Positions 2,485 through 62,785 of a stretch of DNA of 64,000 nucleotides are shown one piece after another. How positions within the stretch are numbered: the first letter of the stretch is position 1; every line of letters starts with the position of its first letter. Both the position numbers and the translations under genes were made by a program. The notes below the pieces were generated by a model. The model was not told the origin of the DNA. It was given only the letters and a program-made list of their open reading frames with translations, and did no database searches. This DNA comes from Tethya wilhelma (taxonomy: Eukaryota > Porifera > Demospongiae > Tethyida > Tethyidae). The stretch is taken from assembly GCA_964030475.1 (NCBI GenBank), contig CAXIPT010000002.1, positions 1,314,519-1,378,518 of the forward strand, read 5' to 3'.

Positions 2485-5400
2485 TAAAAAAAGTAAAAGC
2501 ATTTTTTGATAGCCTATGAAAAGTGCTTCAAGATGATATGCAACAAGTGGGTGTAATTTGTTTTTGAGGTTAAAGGTCAATAAGCGTACCCTTCGACTCT
2601 ACTTTTCACACAGTCGGGTTCCTTGAATTTTTTTCTAACTTTTACTGAACGTTTATCAATGATTCATAAATATTTGGAAAAAAATCGGCTTTGGAGAAAT
2701 TAAGTGTTCATGAGTTCCGTGGGATTATGTATGTAGATGTCTGCACTGTTTTAACATTGTCTTGCCATAATAGGTAATATTATTATCATAATACTGTATA
2801 AAGTGTTACAAATAAGGTAATAATTATTAAATATTTTAATTAGTCATTAAAAAGTTTGAGTTTTTTTGTGGCTTCTTTGCTTTCCATTTGTGTGAGTGCG
2901 TATGAATGGCCTGTTGTGGTTCGAGGTTCTACAATTGTCAAAACACTTGATAATGGTATTGTTAGGGTATTTGGTGTCTGAGGGTAACTGTACCACCTGC
3001 TTGGTCCGTGAGGATGAAGCAAGCTAAGCTTAACTTCACCGTTATCACTATCTTTAGCCAATACCTTGGCTAGCCACCAGTATTCTTGATGTACACAAGT
3101 TACGTATCCAGCAATTGCAACTTGTTCTAGTCCTAAATCTGTTTCCAGCTTGGTCACTCTCTCTACCTTGGAACTACTAGATAAAGAGTATCTCTTAGTT
3201 TTCAAGGTGCTTCTTGAATTTGGTACAAAGCAGTGTAGCTTTCGAGTTCCTGAAATAGTTTTGGAGTTATCAAAACGCTTCTCAAGATTTAGTTTCTCAC
3301 TCTCATACTCGTCCACTGTACAGTACTCAAATTTGATTCCAGGTAAGTCTGCACAAGCCCACTGATACAGTTCAATTGGTGACATTATTTGATCTGCATA
3401 AGGCCTCTGCAAGCTTGCCTTTGCTGCAAGACGCTTTACTGTGCCCCCAAGTCCATCGCAAGCACCCTTCCCATGCGATGTTGCTGAAAAGTGCCATTCC
3501 GCATCTATTCCGAAGTCAACCTTGTGATAGCATGAATTCAGGAAATTTTTCCGATTTTTATATTGGGCAGCTGATCCATCTGAGAAATAGATAACTTTCT
3601 CCACAACAAACGCGAGCTTACGTTTCAAAAATAGTACCAACTTCTTTTGAAACAGGTGCACTGCTATCGTATCATGGTTTAAACAATCAGAAATGACCAC
3701 AAAGTTAAGGTGACTGATTTCACTGGAATGTGATTGTTGAAAGTAGATAACAAAAGGGTGTACCGTTGCTTGAGTGTTATTCCAGTGATACCCTTGTGCT
3801 TCATCTTGAAGCACAAACGAATAGTTTTCTGAAAAATCTGCACAGACTATTATCTCACCTGGTTTCAGTGAAGACTTGCAATTTGCTCTGTTGAGTAGCA
3901 ATGAAAGAGTGAGAAAGAAGGATTTCCAGTTTCTCACAAAATGAGTCGACAAAATCATCTGAATTCTGGGATACCGTCACAAGAGAGGAACGATTGACAG
4001 CAGTCCACTGCTTGTATGTTATGGTATCAATCATGTTCTCGTCAAAAACTATGAGAAGATGCTCTTTAATATTATCTATACCAGGACAAACCTTGCATTC
4101 TCCAAGATAGCAGTCAGGTAATGGTGGATTACACATCATTTGGGCCAAGCAGTGATGGTAAGTCAAGAGAGGAATTGTCGAAGAAGTGAGTTCATGCAAT
4201 CGTGCACCAACCATCATAAGTTTGACGTTCTGATGTATGGTACATACACATACGGAATGCGTACCAGTGGCTCCGGCAAGGACACAGTGTCTCGGTCTTA
4301 GTTCTGCAAATTTAGAAAACCCTATTTTCTGCTGTGGAAATTTTTCTTTAAAGAGTTGGTAGAGCTCCTTCAGATTACACAATACAAGATGCTTTTGTAC
4401 ATGAGTACGACCATGCACACCTTTAACAGACACAAAATCTTTTTTACCAGGCATTAACCTACTACAAGTGTCATTCTCGTAGAAATCAGCCACTAGTTCA
4501 CATGTTTCCTGTGGAATTGTATGTCCAGGCCTGGGGTCTGGACTAGACAATACACCCTTTTCTTTGACAAGCTGTTTAGCCTTTCTTACCATAAAATTAG
4601 AAGCCCCAAATTCAGATTGAATTTTCTGTATTGACCAAGTCTTGGGTAGAACAGTGAGTACTTGCACTTTAACACTGTTTTCTGTAGTGGAATGAAATTT
4701 CTCTTTGAGTTGCTTCACAATCTCACTTTCATCATTTTGAGAACTAGCTCTTTCTCCTAACAATGCTGCACCCATTTTTGATGTCACACTTTCAAGCTTC
4801 TTCTCTGTGTATTTTTTGGATTGTAGCTTTCGTTTGGTGACAGGTGTCTCACCAAATCCCTCCAAGCATTGATTAACCATTTGCAATGAGCTGCACTGTT
4901 CCTCTGGCTCTGCAAATGTAACATCTGTAGGTGAGTAATCGGGTGATAGTTGAGATGAACTTGAGTCAGAGTCTTCTTCTATATCTGATCCTTCACAAAC
5001 TTTTGCCAACATGAGCCACAAATTCTGGTTCCCATTTTAATCTGTGGATTTTTTTCACACATCCAATTGGAGACAGGTCTTAAGGAACTCTTCTTACCAG
5101 TATGTCCACTGATACTGAAGGGGTTGCAGCATGTGCTTCTCCACTGTGTTTGAGCCATAGTCTATTCTTGAACTACTTGAAATGAGTTACTCTTCTTCTG
5201 ACTAACTCTCAGACTAATGACTGCAGGCAGACATGTGCACCCCTTAATCACATTATAGGCATGTACTTATGATAGGATACAGACTTGAATTACTATTAGA
5301 ATAGTTGCTATCTTAACTAGGTACAGTCTTGAATTCTGAATTGGCTATAAAATACCATTGGCCTGTTGATGTGGAGTATCTATTATTTTTAACTTCAGAT

Positions 5401-32707: not shown

Positions 32708-33114
32708 GTTCTGGTGATGAAGCCCTAGGTGAAGAACACTCAGACTCCAGGGAACGATCTGGTATAGGAGATGCAGGTCGAGAGACCAGAGCACTGTTTA
32801 AGCTAGCCTTTAACAGGTAGTCAATTTGACTACCTGTTCTTTAAAATGGGTGTCATTAACTCAAGACAAGAAGACAATAAAATACAGCCATGACTAAAGA
32901 ACACATACAGTACAATCATTTGGCATGAACACTAAACAAACAGAGTATAATATTTTTATGTAATGTTTTAACAGTTAATTCCGGTCTATACAGTTAACAG
33001 CTAATTCAGGTCAGTGCTGCAGTTCTGGTGATGAAGCCCTAGGTGAAGAACACTCAGACTCCAGGAAACGATCTGGTATAGGAGATGCAGGTCGAGAGAC
33101 CAGAGCACTGTTTA
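32708..33114. repeat. 93-bp direct duplication spanning host exon, TSD and hAT tip
   Basis: 32708-32800 and 33022-33114 differ by one base. Each holds part of the PHD-element exon, the TSD GACCAGAG and the first nine bases of the hAT TIR (CACTGTTTA). The second copy lies inside the hAT, fused to its coding end. Confidence 0.9.
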
Positions 33115-35171
33115 ATTCTGTTGGCAGCACTAAATCCTCGCTCACAGGGAACAGAACTAGCAGGTAAGACTAATGCTATGCTAACTAACATAGCAATCTG
33201 TGGATAAATGTCAGAGAAGTCTCGCAGAAACAAAGTCGCAAAACTGTAAAACTCAGCATTAGGAAAGTTTTGAATGACAAATGGGCCAAACAACTGAAAT
33301 TCACTTCGCAGATCAGCCTCAATTAGTAGTGGCTCACACTTACAAAAATGTTTAATGACTACTTCAAGCTCCTCTTTTCCAAAATTAGCAGTGTCAGCAA
33401 CAGTAGATAGGAAGCGCTTTGGGTATACTATCCTAAAAGCACTTAGGAGAGGATTATCAGCAAAGCAATATGATAAATTTTGTTCAAGATTTATGATAAA
33501 AGCTCTCCTTGCATTCTCAAATGCCTGTCGTTGAGTAGCTGTGTCACTAATGTTACATAGAGAATACTTTCCTTCATTATAGTTTTTGACAAACTCACTT
33601 AAGAATGGACCATCATGTGTCTTCATGTTGTGCACTGCATCAGTAACAACAGTAACTTTGGTTTCAATTATTGAAATATCCAAATTTCCTCTTTGGAATG
33701 TCTCTGACAGTTTTGCTAGAACAGACAGAATATCTTTCAAGAAGTGACTGAGAGCGAAAAACTAGTATGTTGATATGGCACGTTGGATGCCAATAGCAGT
33801 AGGGTCTCCTTCCTCTGCAGCATTTTAAAAGTAGGTAATCAGTGGGGTGAGTGAACGAACAATAGTATCAACTGCGTTATGAAAACTCAGCCACCGAACT
33901 TCAAACAACTTCTTCATTTTAATTTCTGGTTGCTCTAAAACTTGTTGAATTACTAGTAAGTGTTCTGCATGAACACTTGAACGAGAAAAATGAGTGTAGA
34001 TAGCGGACAAAGTCTCTGATATCGAGTGATTACTGTAATACCTTCAGCTGCTTGTGAAGAAGCAAGAGCTAAGCGATGGGCAACGCAATGGATTGAAACC
34101 AGGTAAGGATTTTCCCTTTTTATTAGTGCAGCTGCTCCATTTTCGCGACCAACCATCACACTGGCTCCATCAGAGCCGAATCCAACACACTTAGACAGAG
34201 ATAAACTATAATCATTTAAGAGTTGCATGATTGCTGAGGTAAGAGATTCTGCGTCACATTCAGAGACTTTAACATCAGCTAAGAAGCGCGTTTTTCTCAC
34301 TCCATTTACTATTAGCTGGCCATAGGCAATCAAGGCTTTGGTGGTTGCTATGTCAGTAGATTCATCTACCATGATACCAAAACATGGAGAGTTCACTAGC
34401 TCATCTTGGATGTCACTTTTAATATTCTGTGAAATGGATTGTTGCATTTCTTTTACTACATCTGGGCTGGTGTATTTTGCATTTCTACCAACGTACAAAT
34501 TACTGATTGACTCACAGCCTTGTATTTTCACAAGTTCATTCAAAGAGTTGTATTTAATGGAAGCGATGTCTTCTTTAGCGAGCCAGTACACGTTAGTCAT
34601 AGCTGCAACCACAGCTTCTTCACGTAAATCAGCTATCGTAGCTCCAGATTTTTTCATTGCATATGTTTCAGCAGACAAATGATGATCTTTGCTCTTAGCG
34701 TGCTTTTGGACATCAGTGATTCGAAAATTTTTACAGCCTAGTGTGTATGAGTTTCTTCTTTTTGCTTCTTCACAATATTTACAGTAGTCTACATAGATTG
34801 TGTATCTTCACCATACCTCAGCCATACGTACTTTTCTTCCCACGACTTACAGTATCTGCGTGTGGTTTTTCTAATTTTCGGTGATGGCTCCGCCTCTTCA
34901 AGCGCTTCATCTTCTCTCTCGGATTCACTGCTCAAATCGTTTCGAAAACATGCTGACTCACTTCTTTCTTCATAAAAAGACAGCAACGAACTCTGTCTCG
35001 CCATCTTGAAAAAGATGCTTAAAGTTTAAAGGTCGAAAACGTGTCACATCACATGCCTCACGGTGCCTGAATTTAATCGTCAAGAGAATCAATGTAGTAT
35101 TCAGAACAATCGTCAAAAGCATGCAATTATTCGTCAAACGTCGAGTTGACGAATGGCTAGCTTAAACAGTG
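32792..35171 (-). mobile_element. hAT element, 2380 bp, with 8-bp TSD
   Basis: Perfect 17-bp TIRs: CACTGTTTAAGCTAGCC at 32792 and its complement ending at 35171. The 8-bp direct repeat GACCAGAG flanks it at 32784-32791 and 35172-35179. Eight-base TSDs and a hAT-type protein inside agree. It is inserted in the acidic tail of the PHD-element 1 gene, and the host frame resumes correctly across the TSD. Confidence 0.93.
33020..35004 (-). pseudogene. hAT transposase (zinc finger 862-like), frameshifted
   Basis: Reading leftwards from the ATG at 35004: acidic N-terminus, a TTF/BED-type zinc finger (WEEKYVWLRYGEDTQSM, then YCKYCEEAKRRN after a stop and frame change near 34785), the catalytic region (CFGIMVDESTDIATTKALIA; CVGFGSDGASVMVGRENGAA; VSIHCVAHRLALASSQAAEG, 34370-34040), further frame changes near 34010 and 33750, and the C-terminal dimerisation block ALVLPASSVPCERGFSAANR (near 33150). 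The order is that of ZNF862/C17orf113-like hAT proteins. Multiple frameshifts make it inactive. The extreme C-terminus is replaced by a 93-bp duplicated segment. Confidence 0.85.
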
Positions 35172-42304: not shown

Positions 42305-42882
42305 TAGCCTCGTGCCCAGGCCACTCCCAATTTTTGCACGCAGAAAATCGGGAGGGCCTGGGAGGTAAAATCACGTGAATGACGTCACGTATTAAAAATT
42401 AATATATCAGATACGAACCGTAAGCGAACCGTAACTTTGAACATACACAAATATTATTTTGTTTTAAATTTCTCCTTCCCTTCCGGTTTCCAGACTTCTA
42501 CTTCGAATTCAGAACTTCAGAAACCAGCTCAATGGATTTAGACTCGATTACTTAGCGAAGGCTTGACTGTGCTAGTCTGTAGTCTGTACACTTGTTTGGT
42601 TGAATTGATAGGAAAAAATCGCTGTACACGCTATTAGACCCTTCTCTGGTCAGTGGCAAAAACAAAACCTAGCTAACTCTTTCGCTCCAGATCCAGAAAA
42701 CACGTGGCATCCACGAGTAGCTAGTGCCTCATGTATCATATTATATCTAGATCTGTGGTTAGGAGTTATACGGACCGGATCCGGATGTACGTGACATCAT
42801 TCACGTGATTTTACCTCCCAGGCCCTGCCGTTTTTCTGCGTGTAACACAGCAAAAACTGGGAGTGGCCTGGGTACGAGGCTA
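42305..42882. mobile_element. MULE-type MITE with 9-bp TSD, next to the NLR gene
   Basis: TIRs of about 95 bp begin TAGCCTCGTGCCCAGGCCAC and close with GTGGCCTGGGTACGAGGCTA. The direct repeat ATTAGTTAC flanks it at 42296-42304 and 42883-42891. Same family and TSD length as 16590-17429. The TIRs contain TCACGTGA-like palindromes. Its right end is 113 bp before the first in-frame ATG of the NLR gene. Confidence 0.88.
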
Positions 42883-42995
42883 ATTAGTTACATCTACCTC
42901 TGTATACTTTGTTTCTTGTTGTAGTTCATCTCAACTTTATCACAAAAAGTCATCTGAAGATTGAGTGTTGGCAGAATACCTCCTCTTTAGTTGTG

Positions 42996-45900
42996 ATGCT
43001 GATCCTGACTGTGATGACTGATTTGAAGAACATTCAGACATTGCTGTGTTGTGGACAATGGCAGACTACAGTGACTGTCCCTAGAAAAAATCATCTCTTG
43101 GCTGAAGTATCCCTTAAATGTGTGGTAGTGACACTCTTTTACTTTAAACTACTGTTACTACTCAGTGGAGACGTTGAGACAAACCCTGGCCCCATTTATA
43201 ATGGTAATGTATCTATGTATTGATTGAGTTTGTTGTTGCTTTAAGGTTACGGGGTACATTCTGTTATGAATATTTCATGAGCAAGAATAAAAAGTTTCTT
43301 TTTGGTAAAATAGTGCAGCAATTCCCTGCCAAATTTTAAACAACAGCTTAGACAGTTATTCTTTTTAACTTTCAGGACTAAACAGCGAAAAGACAACCTC
43401 GGCAGGCTTACTATACGCTCAGAGGTACCAATTACAGAAAGAGTAGCCAAAATTTTTGGCGTCAGTTTATTACAAGAGGCAACGTTCTAGATCGAGTATG
43501 GAAGCGTTAGACGCTTATTTCCAACTGTCTGCAGGGCCAGATCTATTCGGTTGGCTTCTCTTTCTTATAGTTTGAAAAAAATTGTAGCTCAAACTTACTT
43601 CTTGTCGTGATTCTGCAGCAGAAGCGAAGACAAAAGCTGCCGTTTCTCTGTCGTTGAACGTGCTGTCAAATTTGTTTTTAGATCTGGCTCTGCCCACATA
43701 CAATCCCGTTAAAAGGAGCCACTTTATACGGTCACACGCGGAATACTTTGGAAAAAAACTGATGCCAAAAAATCATGCCAACGGTTTGGCACAAGCTTCG
43801 GTTTGCCTCGCACCTACGCATACTCATTAACATATTCATGAGTAAACGGTAGCCTGTAACCTTAACCTATTATTTTGTGTATTTTTTTGTATATATCTAT
43901 ATCTACAGCTACTAGCAGTTTGTCAGTGGTACATAAGGACATTGGAAAGACCAATGAAACTTTGCTAGCAGAATTTCTCCTATTAATTATTTCTAGCTCA
44001 CTCCTACAATCTGGAAATGTTGAACGGAATCCTGGACCTCTTGGTAAGGGTGCTCTCCGCAAACACACGTTGTTAGGCTGAGTGTGTTGAACTCTCAGGG
44101 TGGACTGTAACAAAACTGACAACAAGCATATACGATGGCTAGACAGGCTAGGCCAATGAGAGAGTTGCTCTCATACTATTATATGATTGAGTCTGCTGTC
44201 CTGCAAACAAGTGCAGGAACTGCCAGCTAGCTACTGACAACTGTTAACATTCATGATACTGAGAATCATAGATAGTGAGCAGACTGACTGAGCAGCCCTT
44301 TCAAACACATTGAATACTGAGGAAATCACCCTAGACTTCCTCTAGAGCTATACAACAAATTCAGGGTTGCATGTGTACAAGGCTATACATCAATAAGTAA
44401 TTGTTGCTACAATAGTTCAACATAATACTAGGTATACATTATGCATGAACACACGTATATATACTTTGATTCACTATAGTCACTTTCTCCCATGCAGAAA
44501 AACTTCTTCAGTTGAAAGACCTGGCTGAGGTGAGAAGAGTTGCGTACAAAGCTCGGGCTAGTTGGGAAGATATTGGGCTTGAACTAGGCCTTGATCCAGC
44601 AACTCTTGAATGTATTCAGTTTGAATTTAGAAATATAAAGAGCTGCTTTACAGTTATGCTTAAACACTGGCTAAGAAAACCGCCTAATGTTGTGAGTCCA
44701 ACATGGTCAATGCTAGCATCAGCATTGGAACAACCTACTGTTGATCATTACCGCCTAGCAGATGAAATCAGAAAGAAGAAGCTAAGTACTGAAACAGAAA
44801 ATGCTGTAACAGTTGACCAATGCTCTGCACCTCAACATGATTGTAGACAATTATCAAGTGAAATTAACTTTGCTTTACCAACCAGTGACAGAGGGCAGTC
44901 AATGACTCCTGTTGATGGACCAGATCAACACTTTGAAATACCAACTGTGCATTGTACTGAGATGGGTAAGTATAAATAGCATTCTACTGTGTAATACATA
45001 TTACTAGTATTCTATCATTAGTCTTACATAGAAATAATCTCACTCCTACATTAAAATAGTCGTGAAGAGCCAATTTGTTTGAATTCCTATCCCAGAAGTC
45101 AAAAACCTAAATCAGATTGGTCACAGTATATGTATATAGCTGTATCATCAGGATATTATATTAACCTCCGTATACTGTAATAGTTACAGAGAACGACACA
45201 GTTTTGCCACATGCATGTCTACAATGTGATATCGAGGTTATGCAGATGTACCTTTGAAAAAACTTAGCTGCATATACACTTTTGTTTCTCGTCATCTTGC
45301 TTGAGTTCTTGTTGGAAATGTTTGCAGACAACTATATACTCAAGTGTGGTCTTAATTGCCCTCCATCGTAGATAATTATACGTACGATAGTACGTATAGT
45401 ATAGGAATGGGCCACATGTCTCATAGACCCAATATAAAATGTTTTCTAGTGACGATGTTTAAACATCAAAGGGGCAAGCCATTATCATTGCTATGTAGTA
45501 TATTTAATGATTAAATAATGTAAATTTCAGCAATAGTTATTGATGTTACCTTAACTATACAACACACATAAAAATATAAAAGCTGAATAATCACAACAAA
45601 TATTAATGAACTAAACTTGAAAACGTATATACAGCATGACTTACTGAGCAGCATGATCCAATTGCTACTTGTTCAAAAACTGACAGACAGGTATATGTGC
45701 TAGTATAGGCTGGGCCAGCAGTACTATATACCTGTTCTTCTTTGCCTCTTCTCTGCTCAGCTGTGCAGGTAATCTTCATGCAGCCCCTCCAATTTTGGTC
45801 TCTCTGGTCATTGGCTCAGTTTTAAGTCTTTTACTTAAAAGGGCACCAACTCAGCAAGGATGAACACGTGGACCTACGCGCATGCGCTGTAAAACTGAAC

Positions 45901-48900
45901 AGGCAATGATCGTCATAAATATAACCTACATTTAAGCAGAAGACGTACGCCAGACTATACTATATATAACACATAATATATAGAAAATTTTGCCGTTGAC
46001 TACACTAGAGTGGGGCTCGCTCCGGCTCGCCCTAATCACTATATATAAATATCTAGCAAAACAAAATTAAGCCCTCAAACTTGCTCAAAGGCTCTCCCCA
46101 ACAGATTACCAACTGCATACAAGGCCTGAAACTCACAGAAACTTCACTGGGCACTCGTAGAGACTGCTAGTGGAAGCCACAATTGTGCCATTTTTGTTCT
46201 CCTAACGTACGTACTTACGTATACTTATATGTACGTACTAACTGACCTACTTGAACATGGTGTTGGGCTAACTTTGACAGCACAAGGTAAGTCCTTTTCA
46301 AGGGAACTGCATTCCTTGATACTTGTTTTCATAACAGATAAGCCTCAACAAAAACTATAGAAATCCTTGAAAGTTAGCATATAAATTCATGTACTTCAAT
46401 GTAGCAATCTTTCTGTAGTTAGAGTTCAAAGGTCACGTCATTATCTATCCACGTGGCATTTAGCACACGCATGAGCTACTCGAGCATTTTAATGCATGAA
46501 GCTGCTACTCAAGCTTTTTGTAGGCACTATAACCAGTCTCTAATAGTCTTCATCACTGCAGTGTTGAAAAAAATGAATAAACAAGTAGTAAAAAAATTTC
46601 AAAAAATAACCAGTGTAGGAATGGGCAGTACTATAAAAAGTATTGGAACAAGGCATGCCTCAATTTCGGCACATGACTACTTCATTTTTTTGTGTTCAAG
46701 TCCTGGCCGGTATAATCTATTCCTGCCTACTGTACTTTATTCTGATACTCTTGATGATAGCTATTTATCTACAGATCGTTCTTGAACCATTTACAACAAT
46801 AATTGAGGGATTGAAAATGAAAATGAAGTAGTCATGTGCCGAAGAGCAAGGGGAAAACCGAGGGCAATATGTATATTTCCCTCGGTTTTCCCCTTCATAT
46901 TACCCTGGGAGCTGTTCAAGACTCTAAAAGATACTCCAGCGCTTCAAAGAAACTTCGGAAGACTTCAAGAAGACAGTGTTAGTGTTTCTTTTCCTCGTAG
47001 ATAATATTTTTCTCTGTTTCAAGAGTGAATTTTAGCGCATAAACCCGAAGTTGACGAAAACTCTTGCTCAAGTCAAAACACAGCTCAAAAGTGGTAAGAA
47101 ACTAGCGACAAGTCTAAGCGCTGGGATACAAGCATTTTAGAACATGCCTACTGACGGGCATTATCGGGCATAATACCTCGTGTATTTCCGATATCGTCCT
47201 AGTAGGCATGTTCTAACATATACATATATACCCTTAACACTATATATATGTCCACAGACAAGTTCATGCACTATATATTAATTTATTTCTTCTCTTCGTT
47301 TGATTAACCCAAGATTTTAAAATTGAATCCTTATATGTTATTGTAGAATTAAAGGTTGTTCATGGTGAAGTCAAACATCTGGAAAAGAATTTTTCAGAAG
47401 TTACTACATGTACATATAATGTAATAATCAAAAACAAAGTTGACATATCAGCATTCCGTGCAAATGTTACTGCTCTTAGTTTATCACTGAAACGAGAACA
47501 CCAGCAATTTATCGATGAACAGCTTCAAGGTTGTACTACACTCAGTGAATCGTGGGTATGTCTTAACAAATACTGGAATTTTCTTAACTACACTCTACTC
47601 GAACACATTGTCCAAACTTTTGGATGTGCAGACTTAAAAGAAAAGATGAATGTGTACGTTAGTGATCTTCAAAAATTTCGTATATCAACTAAGCTGCATG
47701 TTTTTATTAAGTACTGCAAAACAGAAAACTTTCCTGAACTTCCTGAAATAGAACTTCATAGCTTTGTTTTAAGGAAGAGTGATCTTATTTGGGAAACAAC
47801 AACATTAGAAGATGTAGAAAAACTCCAAAAAACCCTTACAAACAAGTTTTTTCTTCCAGCATGTTTACAATTTTTAAGGGATGTTAGTGATGGCTCGCTA
47901 GTAATAACGTGGTACTTACCTGCTCAGACTGCTGCTGTCTTGAGAGAAGATATTGAAAATATGAGAGACAAAAAATTTTTTGAAGAAAACCAGATAGAGT
48001 GTATTTCTATACAGGGACGAAAGTGTTATTACTCTCCATTGAGGAAGTATGCAGCCTTCCTAAGATGTGTATACTCATCAAAGGAAAATAAAAACATTGA
48101 ACCTTTCAAACTCGCTCAAATTGTGAAGCAGGAAGTCAACCATAAAAAAATTGACAGCTTCACAAGATCTAGCATCCGTGGTAATATAGATGATGTGTTT
48201 TTCATGAAAGAGTCAATAGCTGAAAATGATATAGGTAGGATTAAAGATACATCTAACAGGTATCGTAAACCAAAGCTAGTGCTGATTGATGGTGCACCTG
48301 GAGTAGGTAAAACAACATTGAGTTCCCAGGTTTGTTACAAGTGGTCACAAAGTAAAATTTTACAGGAATACTCTCTTCTTATCCTCCTCCCATTACGAGA
48401 CAACCAAGTTAGATCCTCTAATTGTATTGCTGATCTTTTGAACTACTCTGAACTACAGCAAGTAGTAGCACAAGAGTTACAAAGGAGTCAAGGTGAAGGG
48501 GTTCTCTTTTGGTTGGAAGGATTTGATGAATTGGAAGAAGACCTGCGTACCAAGTCTTCAGTGTTTCTTGACCTGATAAATGGAAAAGTTCTACCTAAAG
48601 CTACAATTGTTGTGACTAGTAGGCCGTGGGCTAGTAAAGAGATTGTAAAACAATTATCGGAAAGAACTGACCAACATATCGAAATTGTAACAACGCCATG
48701 TAAGCAACTTGATCGTATATGTAGAGAAGGAAAGATAGGTGCTTCATCATTTGGACAGTTTTCTGAATATGTTGATTCCAATGAACCGATTTTTGCTGCC
48801 ATGCATACTCCAATTACAGCTGACATTACTGTTGAGGTTTTTGAGTGGAATATGAAAAAAGCCTTGCCACTTCCTTGTACAATGACCCAGTTGTACACAA

Positions 48901-50600
48901 GCTTCACTCTTAAGTTACTAGCACAACATCTTCCAAGTAACAATGGTTCAAATCAGTTCGAACTACACGGATTTGATGACTTACCTCATAATGTTTATGA
49001 GCAATTCTGGTCTCTCTGTCAGCTGGCGTATGATGGCATAGTAAAAAAGCAGTTTGTCTTTACTGACCTTCCCTCTGAGTTTGAGTGTCTTGGACTAATG
49101 CAAACAGTGGAGCAATTCTATGATGAGAACCACCCCCAAAAGTCATACAATTTTATTCACCTGACCTTGCAAGAATACTTGTCTGCTTTTTTCATGAGTC
49201 AACAATCAACACTAGAACTGTTTCATAAGCATCATAATTCAAGTCACTTCAAGATGGTTCTTCGTTTTTTGGCTGGATTAACTCGTCTTCAGTATCTCTC
49301 ACCAGTCTTAAGTCAACAATTGTGCGAAAATGACAATCTAACCCTCTTTCATTGGCTGTTTGAAGCTAATGACAGATCCGTTGTAGTCTCTAATCTGACA
49401 TTGGATAGGATAAATGTCCGATCATCATACAGCTGGACTAGTCTAGATTACTATGTTGTTGGTTACTGTCTATCACTGTCCAACTGTGCCTGGAATTTAG
49501 ATTTCTTTAGATTTATTGATAACGATGGGCTGAAAATGTTTTCCAGAGGAGTGTTGCAAAACAGTGATTTTGAATGCAAAGGCTACATTATGAATGCCCG
49601 GTTAGGATTAACCTCTAATAGTATTTCTGCAGCTGGTATAGAATGGTTTTCAAAACTCCCAAACAGAGTTTTTTCTGGTTTAGTAAATCTTAACCTCTCA
49701 CGAAATAAACTAGATGAAAAAGCTTTAACACTACTTAGCAATGCAATACCGTCAATGCCATCGTTAGAGAAGCTCAATTTAAGTGGAAATCCTACTATTG
49801 GATGTGGAGGAGCAGTGATTTTGCTCAAGTCATTACTTACCACCAACACAACATTGAGAGAACTTGATTTTCATGACACTGGCATTGGAGAAGAAGACAC
49901 CATTATCATAGGAGAGTTATTAAGTAGAAACAAAAGTATGACAAAACTTGGAATTACTGGTATATCATCTAGAAGTGTCAATTACATTTTAAAGGGTCTT
50001 CATGAAAACAACTCACTTGAAGAACTCATTGTGTGGGACTCACAGTTTACACTAGAGGCCGCAACATTGTTATCATCTGTACTAAAACAACCAACATGTC
50101 GACTCCAGATGGTCAATATTCAGGGTTGTGGAATAGCTTCTAATAGCTGCATTAATCTAGCTGAAGGACTAAGTAATAATCAATCAGTAAGAACGCTACG
50201 TCTATCATCTAATCCCATAGGAGATGAAGGAATTGCATCACTGGCTAAAATGCTGTCACAAAACAAACACATAGAAGAACTTTGGTTGTCAAGTTGCAAT
50301 GTCACCTCTAATGGAGCAGTACAACTAGCAAATGTACTTTCTACTGAAAATAAAAGTCTAAAGATATTGTGCTTTCCAGGCAATTCTATTGGGCCAGAGG
50401 GTGCTACTGCACTTGCAGTGATGATAGAAAATAACAGATCACTTAAGGAACTATGGCTGCATATCGATAAGTCCTTGGAAGAAGATGGTGTGCGTCAATT
50501 AATTAGTGGATTAGCAAAAAATTCCAGTTTCAATGAATTAAGGCTACCACTAAAGTATAAAATGAAAGTACATGACGACAGGATCAGGTGGTGGCAATAG
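42996..50600 (+). CDS. 2A-2A-DEATH-NACHT-LRR receptor (NLR)
   Basis: Four coding exons, all joined in phase 1: 42996-43203, 43909-44043, 44498-44965 and 47347-50600 (1354 codons plus stop). Exon 1: hydrophobic segment ending in a 2A motif (Pro 66). Exon 2: second hydrophobic segment and 2A-like motif (Pro 113). Exon 3: a DEATH fold (SWEDIGLELGLDPATLECIQ; CFTVMLKHWLRK), about residues 120-205. Exon 4: a helical region, then NACHT with Walker A GAPGVGKTT (48291-48317), Walker B LFWLEGFDELEE (48504-48539) and VVTSRPWA, the HLTLQEYLSAFF helix (49156-49191) and about eight LRRs (49670-50560). NLRs are cytosolic sensors that oligomerise through NACHT and signal through DEATH partners. The start is uncertain: the frame is open upstream to a possible acceptor at 42924. 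Intron 3 holds an R3 MITE. Confidence 0.88.
43134..43193 (+). other. 2A-like ribosome-skipping motif 1 (exon 1)
   Basis: The hydrophobic run FYFKLLLLLSGDVETNPGP matches the 2A consensus D(V/I)ExNPGP, with the leucine-rich helix that normally precedes it. In 2A sequences the ribosome fails to form the Gly-Pro bond and continues with Pro. Cleavage here would release a ~65-residue leader. Nine-residue core at 43167-43193. The motif is followed by IYN and the splice donor. Confidence 0.9.
44001..44039 (+). other. 2A-like motif 2 (exon 2), non-canonical Asn
   Basis: LLIISSSLLQSGNVERNPGP: the NPGP core and preceding helix are kept, but the usual Asp of DxExNPGP is Asn. It could be less active than motif 1. 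It ends four bases before the exon 2 donor, the same arrangement as motif 1 in exon 1. Confidence 0.8.
45383..46700. repeat. R3 TIR-element copy inside NLR intron 3
   Basis: Starts ACGTACGATAGTACGTATAG with the GGAATGGGCC block, and from 46055 reads the same TIR interior as 39820-40040 (ATTACCAACTGCATACAAGG). The following part to about 46700 is an inverted match to 40860-41390, so the copy is rearranged. The open frame at 46453-46785 is part of this repeat and not a gene. Confidence 0.6.
46848..46895. repeat. Hairpin, 17-bp perfect arms, NLR intron 3
   Basis: AAGGGGAAAACCGAGGG at 46848-46864 is complemented exactly at 46879-46895 with a 14-base AT-rich loop. Confidence 0.9.
47138..47215. 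repeat. Inverted repeat, 15-bp arms, NLR intron 3
   Basis: TAGAACATGCCTACT at 47138-47152 and AGTAGGCATGTTCTA at 47201-47215 surround 48 bases that contain a shorter CGGGCATTATCGGGCAT direct repeat. It lies about 130 bp before the acceptor of the NACHT exon. Confidence 0.85.
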
Positions 50601-58001: not shown

Positions 58002-61000
58002 CCACATCCAATTGGCCCAGTGTATGTCCTTTTATGGTCAAAATAATGATTATCAGTTGTGTGGTCAAATAGTTTATATTAGAACTTAACCCTAAACCAC
58101 GAAAGTGCCATGAGACACAGAATCTGTTGTGTATTTACACTGGGTACACTTTTGTTGAAATGTGAAGCATCTCTGAATGCTTAGCTTCGAAACTGCATGC
58201 ACCCATTGATATTGCCCATGTTGTGTGCATTATGGAGTGGATGCAGAGTGCTGTGGGGTTCGAGTCAGTTGCTTTGTCACATCATTATGCACAATAGCTA
58301 GCTAGCTAGCTAGTAGACTGAGCTTATGTATGCATGCCTGGCTGGTTTGCTATAATATGTCATCTTTATTAATGAATTAGTGCATGTTACTGTTCAACCA
58401 TTTAAGGAATGAATTTCAGTCTGAACTGAGTTTTCCATAGGATGTATGCAGGTTGCATGGAAGCTATTTTAAGATGCCAAAAGATATGACTAGGCTGCGG
58501 CACCTAATCAGCTTACCTTGGTACTCATGGCTACAAAATGTCTTGCTTTGCATGCTATATGAGTGCGCCGAGGCTTAGTACCTTCATTGTTTTGTGTAAT
58601 TTTGCAACTGTAGTACAGTAAACTTCGGTAACTTTTTCTATCTTAGGAGAGTGATTTGGAAATGGATACTGAAGAAATACGACAGCAAGCGATTATTTTT
58701 AAGAAGGAGCCTTTGTCCACCTACCGTATTAAGGTCAACGAAGCAGCACAAGAAATATGTATGAAGAAGCCAAGTTTATTAACAAGAAGAGGAGAATTGC
58801 TTGTCCTAGCCAAAGAGAGAGTTCACAAAAGCGGTTATGCATATCAGAAAGGAAAGTCGAGATCGAAATCTTATGGGTGTAATGCTGAAGAGTCAAGTAA
58901 GCCAAAACGTGTCAAGACATCTCAAGATGAACGAAATAGTCGTATGAAGGCAATCAAAGAAGAATTGCAGGACCTAAAGACTCGGTGTTCATTTAAACAG
59001 AAGAGATTAGAGGGTGCAGAAGTGGCTAAGAAATACAAACTCTGTGATGAGCTCAGTGAAGAAATCGGTGAGATTAACAAATCCAAGCGTCTCCTTGAAA
59101 CAGAATTGGCATTGTTAAAAAAGAAAGAAAAGAAATCCCAGCGTTACTATCGAAAACGAAGCTGCAGTGATACTGACAGTGGTTCTTCCCGTAGAAGTAG
59201 ATCAGTCTCATCCAGGGAGACAAGTTCTGTACCGTATTCTCCACCCATAAAAAGGTCATGTAGAATGACTAGTCCTCCTTCACTCAGTACATCTTTACCA
59301 ACTGATTGCAATGTGGTGATTGTCTCTAGTGCACAGCATGAAGTGCCAGTTACTTCTGTAACATCTGAGCAAGCTCAAGGCCATGAACAGCAAGAGAATG
59401 TTCAAACTGAGCTGGAGGAGGTTGAAATTGACCCAGAAAATGAAAGTGAAAGTGAGCCAGAAGAAAGTGAGGAAGACAATTTCCATAGTGGAGAAGAGGG
59501 TGTTCATGTTGAGCAGTCTTTTTGATTAAGCCTCCCTGTGAGGCATTTTCTACAGGGAGGCCACTGGATGAACTAATGCAAATTTTTACGGATTTTCTTA
59601 GATCTACTCCAAGCGAATACACACGCATATCTGACACTGTTTCTGTTAGTAAACTTAGTATGTCCTTAGATGAGTACATTGTAGTAACTGAAGAGTATTG
59701 TAGCCAAAGACATGGAGGTTCTACCAAACAATGTCGTTGTTTACCATTGTTAGCTTGTGCTAGAGCTATTCGTGAAAGAGGAATATGTCCCATGGCAAGC
59801 CTCTATAAAGAAATTTTTCCAGGGACGAAATATAACACACAAGTTGCTAAGCAGAGACTACTTCAGACACCTATAGCAGCAGTAAGGTGGGTCTGCATGG
59901 GTGCATGTGCTATACTTGCGTGTGATGTGTGTGTGTGCATGCATATGTGTGTAAGTGTGCATGCGTGCATCTGTGAATATATTCAATTATAGTATTTCTG
60001 TGTTTCATACAGGTGTGGTGACCCTCAGAGTGGTAAATCAAGAGTATTTCTTATGGAAAGCATTCCTGGTTGTACCCATCTCTATCAAAATATCATCGAC
60101 TTTTACCTTGAAACAAGTAAATCTGCAAACACTACTCCTAAAATGTCAAGAGATCACCTCCGTCAATTACTCACACTTTCACAAAGTGATAGAGAACGTG
60201 AGTGCATTAAGTATGCAGTTTTCAAAGCATCTGGACTCTCAGTTTCGGCTGCACGTAAAATGTATGGGTTTTCAGACATGACGCAAAGAGTAGACAAAGT
60301 TCAGAATGCAATTGAAGAGGCTAGGCAGATTAGAGAAAACCTTGAAAGTCTTGCATCGATCCAAGACAGAGCCATTTTGCTCTCACATGGTATAGTCCCT
60401 TCTTCAAGTAGTAGTAGTTGTAGTAGTTCCGGTGGTGAGGAGGAAGTTGCTTCTATTGACCTGGAAGATTTCAAACCGCCAAGAGTTTGCCAGAGTCCTG
60501 AGGGTGTAGACTTAGCCTCTTTGCCTCTGCAGCGTATTGTAGAAAAAAGTAAGTCAAACTTCTTCCAAGTTGTTGAAGATATAGAAGCACACTTTGGAAT
60601 ATCTCTTGATTCTGAGCAGCTAGATCTTCTATTTCAACAAGTTGTATCTCTTCCTGATTCATGTTTTGATACTTCCTTAATGGAACAGTCTTATCGAGCC
60701 TTTGTTTCGAGCACCACTGAGACTTTTCCAGAAGAACGAAATGCCAATTCAGTCAATGGTTTAGTAGTCACTGACTCTGAGAGTGAGGATCCAGAGCTGT
60801 TGCTGTTGGAAACTGAAAAGCAAAAGGCTATCCAAAAGCAAAGAAAAATTTTGCAACGAAAAGTACGAAGACAACGGGCAAAACGTATTGCAAGTGCCAA
60901 CTTTTTGTCCAGAAGAGTATCTAAAAATGTCCATGGTATTGTTAAAAAGTTTCCAAATATTGGAAAAGCCATTGAAGAGTATGTTTCCGAACGAAATGTT

Positions 61001-62785
61001 GGTGCAGACTGTTGGCGCCGAACAGGCGTTCTGACGTTCGATGGAAATCTTGATATTAAGGAAAAAGTGACCTATGGCAGAATACGGGAACACTTACAAA
61101 CTCTATACAAACACAAGTTTTCGTATGGCACCATAGTTCAGCTTTGTGTAGCTAGGAACAAAAGACGAAGGAGTGCAGCCAACTATCGTGGCTTGGCCAA
61201 AGTCACCACAAGGAGGGCTCGTAAGGGTTTTACACTGAAATTTAACCCTGATAGTCATTGGTCAGGAGCGTTCTACAGAGGTTTGAACTGGTTGCAGTAT
61301 CATGATGGTCTTAAAATTCTTAATGTGAACAGAGACGATGCATCTGGGTTTCGACTCGATACTCTTGCAACGCACAATCAATATGCCACCCCAGTTGTAG
61401 GTGAAACCTTGACCACACGAACTGATTATGTCAACAAATACACCAGTGTCTTACAAACTACGTCTTATAACTTTTCAGGAACCAGTACTACTCCGGAATT
61501 TTGTGCAGGTGTTGTCAAGCCATCTAAAGTCTTTCCGAAAAACCCTGCTCAGCATGCCGCTGATTTTAAGATGCTGTTGTCTCAACCTCAACTTCAAGGT
61601 GCATTTGTAAACAATCACACAGGTCTCCCTAAGCGCGTAGCTTGCATTCGTGTTGATGGGGCTGGGGATGAGGGCCCTGGCCACCTTGAAGTCCAGTATT
61701 GGTGGACACTTCACCACATTGAAGCATACTCTGATGTAACTTTGGTCACTACGAGAAGTAGCGGCAGTAGCTATCTTAATAGAGTAGAGCTACAGAACGG
61801 TTGCCTTTCCCATGCTCATGCTAACCTTTTTATTCCGTCAACTCTAAATGGTTCTTGTCTTGTTGGTGGTGACATAGATGAAGCAAAGCTTAAACAGAAT
61901 CTAATGTCAGCTGCAGAAGTGTACATTAAGCGATGTGACAAGGCACCTTGTGGTGATACAGAGATAAACCTTTACATCGGTGCTGATTCATCTGATTATC
62001 AAGTGTCAAGGGAAACATTACTTACATTTCTGAAGGGATCACTAACAGCAAAGAGCAAATTGCGTAGAGAGCACCCAGAAGAGTATGCCAAGTTTGAAAC
62101 AGTGTGGAGTGTAAGAGAACGCCATATGGTAAAGAATGTTCCTACACAATATGTGTTTTTCCTGCTTCCTTGTTACGAAGCAAGTTGCCCACATCCTGCC
62201 TGTAAGAAGGGGAAACCAGAAGAAGAGTTAACATGGTATGAAAATGGTCCACCAATTTCTTATCTACCCTTTCCTGTGTGTGATGTAAACAGAGCTTGGG
62301 GCAGTGATACATGTAACAGTTGCACAGGGTTTTGTGCTGGTCATTATTTATCTCCAGAGGCAGCTTATCTAGAACGCAACAAGTGTATTGTTGAGCCACC
62401 ATCCCAGATCCTTGGCAAGCTTCACAAGCAACAAGGATCAATTGCCGAAGAAAGATTAGCAGAAATTGCTAAGGATGTGTTACTATCTCAGAGTGACTTG
62501 AAATTGTGGGTGCAGCATCTGGACACCATTAAAGAAAACAGAAGAAGAGGAGCTCAGAAAGCGCAGGAAACTCGCCGAAGAAAGAAACAAGCAAGTTATG
62601 TGAATGAATATCGTTGTGGAGTATGTAGTCAGCTGTACGTAGACGAAACAGAAGAAGAGGAATTGTGGATTGGGTGTGACCGTTGTCAGTCGTGGTTTCA
62701 GGTTAATTGTGTATGCATAAGGTCAGAGGATGTTTTGTCGATTGATAGGTATGTTTGTCCTAAGTGTCAAGAGTCTTCAGGTTAA
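57277..62785 (+). CDS. PHD-finger transposase-like protein, intact copy
   Basis: Exons 57277-57549, 57616-57810, 58647-59525 (first frame), 59522-59886 and 60013-62785, with GT-AG introns. Domains: a PB1-like beta-grasp start (QIFDKDWSRYVDVQSGAIPN); a conserved block NEAAQEICMKKPSLLTRRGE; a Lys-rich coiled coil; an acidic tail ending at 59525; a second frame with TGRPLDELM and a C-x-C pair; and a core with VNRDDASGF, IRVDGAGDEGPGHLEVQYWW and YLNRVELQNGCLSH, where D, D and E are candidate catalytic residues. Then come cysteine blocks (CPHPACKKG; CNSCTGFCAGHYL), a basic helix and a C-terminal PHD finger (CGVCSQLYV...WIGCDRCQSW...YVCPKC). Proteins with this core are common but unnamed in corals and sponges (from memory). 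A probable AATAAA lies near 62970. Confidence 0.8.
57968..57996. repeat. (TG)n microsatellite in intron 2 of the PHD-element gene
   Basis: About 14 uninterrupted TG units. A shorter TG run lies at 57825-57851. Confidence 0.95.
59530..59561 (+). promoter_or_regulatory. Stem-loop at the ORF1/ORF2 frame junction, element 2
   Basis: GCCTCCCTGT (59530-59539) pairs perfectly with ACAGGGAGGC (59552-59561), loop 12 bases, four bases after the TGA at 59523-59525 that follows a T5 run. The next frame is open in the -1 register from the same point. A TTTTCTACAG splice-acceptor-like sequence ends at 59555 inside the stem, so splicing is an alternative explanation. Confidence 0.6.

Follow-up and report, generated by a model that had tools for sequence, protein, structure and literature searches.

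Two StopGo/2A motifs in series ahead of a predicted DEATH-NACHT-LRR receptor in the sponge Tethya wilhelma

A predicted DEATH-NACHT-LRR receptor gene of the sponge Tethya wilhelma carries two StopGo/2A cassettes in series ahead of the receptor, and it is on balance probable, by a small measure, that both occur in one mRNA and that each is able to skip. The gene lies within a stretch of 64,000 nucleotides of contig CAXIPT010000002.1, the whole of which was analysed and is referred to here as the window. The cores DVETNPGP (43170 to 43193, forward strand, preceded by LLLLLSG) and NVERNPGP (44016 to 44039, forward strand, preceded by SLLQSG) were the sole regex matches in the six frames of the window, and reading their codons in the sequence confirmed that both are present and in frame with the receptor. 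A chance origin of the motifs is excluded because the whole genome holds 89 exact matches, against one for a reversed-pattern control. In published cases, the Gly-Pro bond at NPG/P is left unformed, the upstream chain is freed, and translation continues.

The window gene and its receptor

The predicted splice model joins four exons (42996 or 43014 to 43203, 43909 to 44043, 44498 to 44965, and 47347 to 50600), all on the forward strand and all joined in phase 1. The first 2A exon, of family C, would span 42925 to 43203 in phase 1-1 with the candidate acceptor at 42924; it has two in-frame ATGs, at 42996 and 43014, and ends at a weak phase-1 donor, ATG/GTAATG. The second, a 135-nt family B exon in phase 1-1 (43909 to 44043), has boundaries that match those of the paralogous family B exons, its acceptor at 43908/43909 tying with two others under the rough ad hoc scheme of our own from which all donor and acceptor scores were taken. 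It is followed by a DEATH-like exon (44498 to 44965, phase 1-1) and by an exon encoding NACHT (approximately 48276 to 48686), leucine-rich repeats, and the stop codon (47347 to 50600). Spliced in this way, the frame is open over 1354 residues from the ATG at 42996, or 1348 from the ATG at 43014, with a single terminal stop. The original prediction of two 2A-like motifs in series, in frame with DEATH-like, NACHT, and LRR sequence, was thus borne out by the motif positions and the predicted phase-1 splice model. Its product sizes of 65, 47, and 1242 residues were reproduced for a start at 42996 with cuts at both sites, although the 65-residue leader is uncertain in view of the phase-1 acceptor at 42924/42925. 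The middle peptide, PIYNATSSLSVVHKDIGKTNETLLAEF... (43191 to 43203 plus 43909 to 44036), contains two N-x-T sites, one of which is created by the exon junction.

Both cores fall within the expanded definition (D/G/C/N)(V/I)ExNPGP, which admits N in the first position; the natural variants tested, N among them, reached an activity of approximately 90% or higher in reticulocyte lysate (PMC12846837). The hexapeptide at site 1, LLLLSG, belongs to the LLLLSG-like class of upstream sequences recognised in the same source (PMC12846837), permissive hexapeptides being taken as those that close with A/S/C-G. That of site 2, SLLQSG, shares the SG ending yet is poorer in leucine than this published class, and skipping there is therefore less certain. 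The expected hydrophobic run precedes the motif at both sites. Mean hydropathy over 19 residues was 2.15 for the run at site 1 and 1.52 for that at site 2, the latter being lower than in the rest of family B (1.79 to 2.73).

Exon 4 matched the Pfam models NACHT (E 8.2e-19, 68.5 bits against a cut-off of 26.7) and LRR_6 (E 1.6e-14, 53.1 bits against a cut-off of 23.4). The gene thereby combines the NACHT and C-terminal LRRs that define an NLR and, on the predicted gene model, has the 2A at or near the N-terminus that characterises the SpNLR2A class. Taken alone, the DEATH-like exon matched Pfam Death at E 9e-4 with 19.7 bits, under the cut-off of 22.6. A profile of eight DEATH-like exons, searched against the PDB, ranked THO complex subunit 1 first (E 1.8e-5), followed by FADD and other death domains from E 3e-5. 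Exon 4 shares 57% identity (613/1080) with its L043 paralog at a pN/pS of 0.40, which is consistent with purifying selection on the receptor. A search of residues 1 to 270 against 5.8 billion predicted proteins returned no match at E up to 10.

The start of the gene, and with it the length of the leader, is uncertain because no leader exon of the MPISAEQWR type, present upstream of many other 2A exons in this genome, was found upstream in the window, either by HMM across the window or by tblastn of the 7 kb upstream with two family C exons. Candidate first exons further upstream in the window were considered and proved unsupported. The top-scoring acceptor upstream of the first motif, TTGTTTCTTGTTGTAG/TTCATC at 42924/42925 (ad hoc score), is in phase 1, and the frame stays open from there as far as the 43203 donor; the exon bearing this motif may therefore be internal (42925 to 43203), preceded by a first exon that was not seen. 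Alternatively, it may itself be the first exon, with a start at 42996 or 43014. In the relatives at L020 and L028, the acceptor that scores best before the 2A is not in phase 1, which favours the first-exon reading and means that the evidence for an internal exon comes from the window itself. Just before the candidate acceptor lies a MITE-like insertion (42305 to 42882), with ATTAGTTAC on both sides and inverted-repeat arms of 58 and 33 nt that are 93 to 94% complementary. A further possible MITE-like insertion (43241 to 43865), bounded on each side by TTAA and carrying an imperfect inverted repeat of 17 nt, would occupy the greater part of the intron that separates the 2A exons. Elsewhere in the window, the stretches 33054 to 34807 on the reverse strand and 58647 to 62785 on the forward strand contain pieces of hAT-type transposase (Dimer_Tnp_hAT, DUF4371) and reading frames showing NCD2 and weak PHD matches.

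2A exons across the genome

We scrutinized the 124.6-Mb assembly with the degenerate DNA motif [D/N]-[NTN codon]-E-x-N-P-G-P, the reversed pattern serving as control. The 89 exact motifs comprised 52 distinct 23-mers, differing at third codon positions. Allowing up to one mismatch gave 106 places, against 14 in the control, that is, 17 one-mismatch places (11 of which were listed) against 13. Exact copies thus far exceed the control while one-mismatch copies barely do so, from which we infer that the 2A core is under strong selection. The core of window exon 2 differed from each of nine paralogous copies by two to three synonymous and no nonsynonymous changes. With one exon of family B and one of family A as protein queries, 43 and 70 matches, respectively, were obtained, all of which fell on motif places (43/43 and 70/70); the 2A motif itself contributes to these scores.

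The sequence downstream of the motifs was examined for 71 of the 89, and a DEATH-like exon followed on the same strand at 50 of these 71 places. Local HMM scans placed such an exon within approximately 1.5 kb at 26 of the first 30 motif places and downstream at 20 of 37 in a second set, hand-picked to spread over contigs. All four further places (L040, L041, and two in L044) also had one, but these match by construction, the DEATH HMM having been made from eight exons that include those of the window and of L039 to L044; the places in L042 and L043 are already included in the first 30. DEATH-like matches on the opposite strand were found at one of the first 30 loci (L020), whereas the 36 loci that make up the second set gave none. 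Nearest-domain Pfam counts were sparse because only the best candidates were scored, and local HMM scans of locus DNA were used instead; among those best candidates, a Death match lay within 12 kb of at least seven of the 89 motifs and a NACHT match within that distance of at least eight, against a mean of approximately 0.5 each when 60 motifs were placed at random on contigs of known length.

Places lacking a DEATH-like match in the first set were L011, L012, L027, and L031, with reverse transcriptase downstream at L012 and L027. The 17 in the second set were L046 (two motifs), L053, L055 to L057, L059, L060, L065, L066, L069, L070, L075, and L078 to L081. Among these, L081 has a NACHT match 4.1 kb downstream; L057, L060, L066, and L069 were classed as retro-type from their resemblance to such places, L060 also showing a weak PHD match; L055 and L056 have a short or absent hydrophobic run and are perhaps chance motifs; and the scan at L075 covered only approximately 200 bases downstream. 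At L065 and L080 (C13:183483-185483 and C13:188320-190320), long open frames with no Pfam match run on after SGDVETNPGP. These are the two examined of four 2A motifs that contig C13 holds within 17 kb.

The exons bearing these motifs share a splice phase. At 68 distinct places, the best donor after NPGP was in phase 1 at 50, in phase 0 at one, and in phase 2 at three, with none over threshold at 14 (ad hoc score), against 301, 379, and 387 for phases 1, 0, and 2 and none at 3933 among 5000 random positions. Upstream, a phase-1 acceptor scored best at 20 of 30 places (alone, with window exon 2 tied), tied for best at three more (L022 to L024), and was not best at L009, L012, L014, L020, L026, L027, and L028. 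In 10 of 11 family B copies, the stretch from the last stop to the motif lacked an in-frame ATG. By their predicted borders, the 2A units resemble cassette exons of phase 1.

The leader exon, MPISAEQWR-like and conserved, has a phase-1 donor in the copies read. Its DNA pattern occurred at 30 places (26 exact and four with one mismatch), compared with none in the control. A 2A motif followed within 5 kb on the same strand at 24 of the 30 (23 different motifs), suggesting that leader, 2A cassette, and DEATH-like exon is a common order; the other six had no 2A motif within 5 kb downstream. Copies of the leader, which differ synonymously, include those at L016, L018, L019, L023, L034, L043 (5462), L017 (678), L035, L038, and L045 (about 3610), and the three leader peptides tried gave no Pfam match. 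In the family C loci L020 and L044, an MP..S.QEWR leader and the 2A lie within one open frame.

Serial exons and alternative readings

Two genes were found in which one 2A exon directly follows another, that of the window (family C then B) and C3:213687/214387 (family A then B), with the NVERNPGP-type (B) cassette second in both. In the latter, a leader at approximately C3:212009 has a phase-1 donor, both 2A exons have phase-1 borders, and the sequence downstream holds a DEATH-like exon and then ankyrin, Death, and COR-A matches; the leader, 2A pair, DEATH-like, and ankyrin-COR parts would presumably form one gene. A second 2A exon directly upstream was absent at 11 of 13 family B-like places, so the serial arrangement is not needed for this exon type. 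Other 2A motifs within 3 kb of each other were rejected as serial: C1:17935653/17936761 (L015/L016) is a 1108-bp tandem duplication of leader, 2A, and DEATH-like exon; each 2A at C4:2279740/2282005 has its own leader and DEATH-like exon; and C3:2238591/2241497 has other open frames between its motifs and no DEATH-like match.

The second serial gene, with the same order, a leader upstream, and phase-1 junctions, bears on whether the two window exons are used together or apart. Each mRNA might instead contain one 2A exon, either through a join of the first-2A start to DEATH or through an unseen leader joined to the second 2A and then DEATH, with splicing setting the N-terminus. Joining exon 1 to exon 3 preserves the frame and leaves exon 2 skippable, the first 2A exon has a weak donor and is flanked by insertions on both sides, and the paralogous cluster on C1 consists of a leader, one family B 2A exon, a DEATH-like exon, and NACHT-LRR. 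The C3 gene nevertheless argues for joint use, as does the intact state of both window cores, and we consider one 2A per mRNA unlikely, while giving it real weight.

The hydrophobic segments could also act as signals or anchors in their own right, with NPGP ends that skip little and selection acting on something else. A 19-residue run of mean hydropathy above 1.6 preceded the core at 23 of 30 motif places, which would fit such a role. The invariant part is nonetheless the StopGo core, which shows synonymous change and almost no one-base decay, and both L-rich and N-variant 2As are active as published (PMC12846837); we therefore regard this explanation as improbable.

At least four of the 89 motifs have, on their own strand and no more than 8 kb downstream, a reverse-transcriptase match from a list of 150 of 812 candidates, at 2.4 to 2.5 kb for L012 and L027, 3.4 kb for L025, and 6.6 kb for C11:1650036. 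At L025 (C1:22246814), a family A locus, there is also a DEATH-like exon nearby. These matches, and the continuation of L060 into a weak PHD-finger match, would suit remnants of non-LTR retrotransposons, but L012, L027, L057, L060, L066, and L069 have no phase-1 donor over threshold, and the window has no match among the 150 of 812 reverse-transcriptase candidates listed, with DEATH-like, NACHT, and LRR sequence instead. Given these positions, the 89 exact motifs against one, the recurrence of DEATH-like exons, and the few one-mismatch copies, an origin of the window pair from retrotransposons or by chance was rejected as extremely improbable. The 2A of non-LTR retrotransposons was reportedly treated by Odon in 2013. 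It shares the core motif and is also present elsewhere in the T. wilhelma genome; it differs from that of the window gene in that reverse transcriptase follows at L012 and L027, without a phase-1 donor over threshold, whereas the window has DEATH-like and NACHT-LRR sequence.

Proposed products and relation to known systems

With both cassettes in one mRNA, a ribosome could fail to make the Gly-Pro bond at each NPG/P. Skipping at site 2 would release a free receptor starting with proline, regardless of the outcome at site 1, and site 1 would set the head of any unskipped receptor, namely the hydrophobic middle peptide of 47 residues, either by itself or with the leader before it. Rather than the up to three products originally predicted, partial skipping would yield up to six: leader, middle, leader-middle, receptor, middle-receptor, and leader-middle-receptor. 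Assuming 80% at each site, the receptor would be free in 80% of cases, joined to the middle peptide in 16%, and part of the full fusion in 4%. A cytosolic receptor would be the main product, and the minor fusions, retaining one or two hydrophobic segments, might enter the ER or be anchored in the membrane, as for the sea urchin NLR 2A-reporter fusion. Site 1 would provide the stronger anchor because of its higher hydropathy (2.15, compared with 1.52 at site 2). For SpNLR2A6, recoding was estimated at approximately 80%, and with an inactive mutant of it the reporter entered the exocytic pathway (PMC4981915). Putative membrane-bound NLRs have been reported in sponges (PMC12909245).

More tentatively, and with somewhat less than even confidence, we propose that StopGo may be a modular, shuffled phase 1-1 cassette, used singly or serially between the conserved leader and the DEATH-domain exons. 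Alternative splicing could then add, remove, or stack skipping sites, choosing between free cytosolic and leader- or anchor-bearing receptors.

The sea urchin precedent that had been invoked is published, with 2A-like sequences given for 85 of 241 NLRs in an early count and N-terminally for 14 of 87 NCBI entries (PMC4981915). Like SpNLR2A as described there (Roulston 2016, PMC4981915), the window gene has a 2A heading DEATH-like, NACHT, and LRR sequence and a hydrophobic run before D(V/I)ExNPGP, and L013, L014, and L041 resemble the short Met-hydrophobic-SGDVETNPGP start. Unlike the 26-residue N-terminal 2A of the sea urchin, those of the window are two in series on phase-1 cassette-like exons, and T. 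wilhelma 2As often stand behind a separate leader exon and also ahead of a DEATH-ankyrin-COR sequence. Picornaviruses with multiple 2A-NPGP likewise have serial sites, with tracts described as approximately 50 to 150 amino acids (PMC11512398), to which the 47 residues of the window are similar, but theirs are viral polyproteins, whereas this would be a spliced cellular gene. A single 2A on sea urchin NLRs and serial 2A in picornaviruses are thus known. The literature matches listed included neither a paired 2A in a cellular gene nor a 2A carried on a phase-1 cassette that follows a leader exon, although Rao 2025, a survey of viral and cellular 2A, could contain related cases.

By a published account, natural StopGo is for the most part viral and occurs only very rarely in cellular coding sequence (PMC12846837). 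With 89 intact copies in T. wilhelma, and a DEATH-like exon after 50 of 71, 2A would be a regular part of an animal immune-gene repertoire, and such a genome would make the role of cellular 2As directly testable. Serial 2A exons would split roles, the downstream site setting the amount of free receptor and the upstream site what the rest carries, and, with symmetric cassette exons, splicing would be able to switch recoding on or off.
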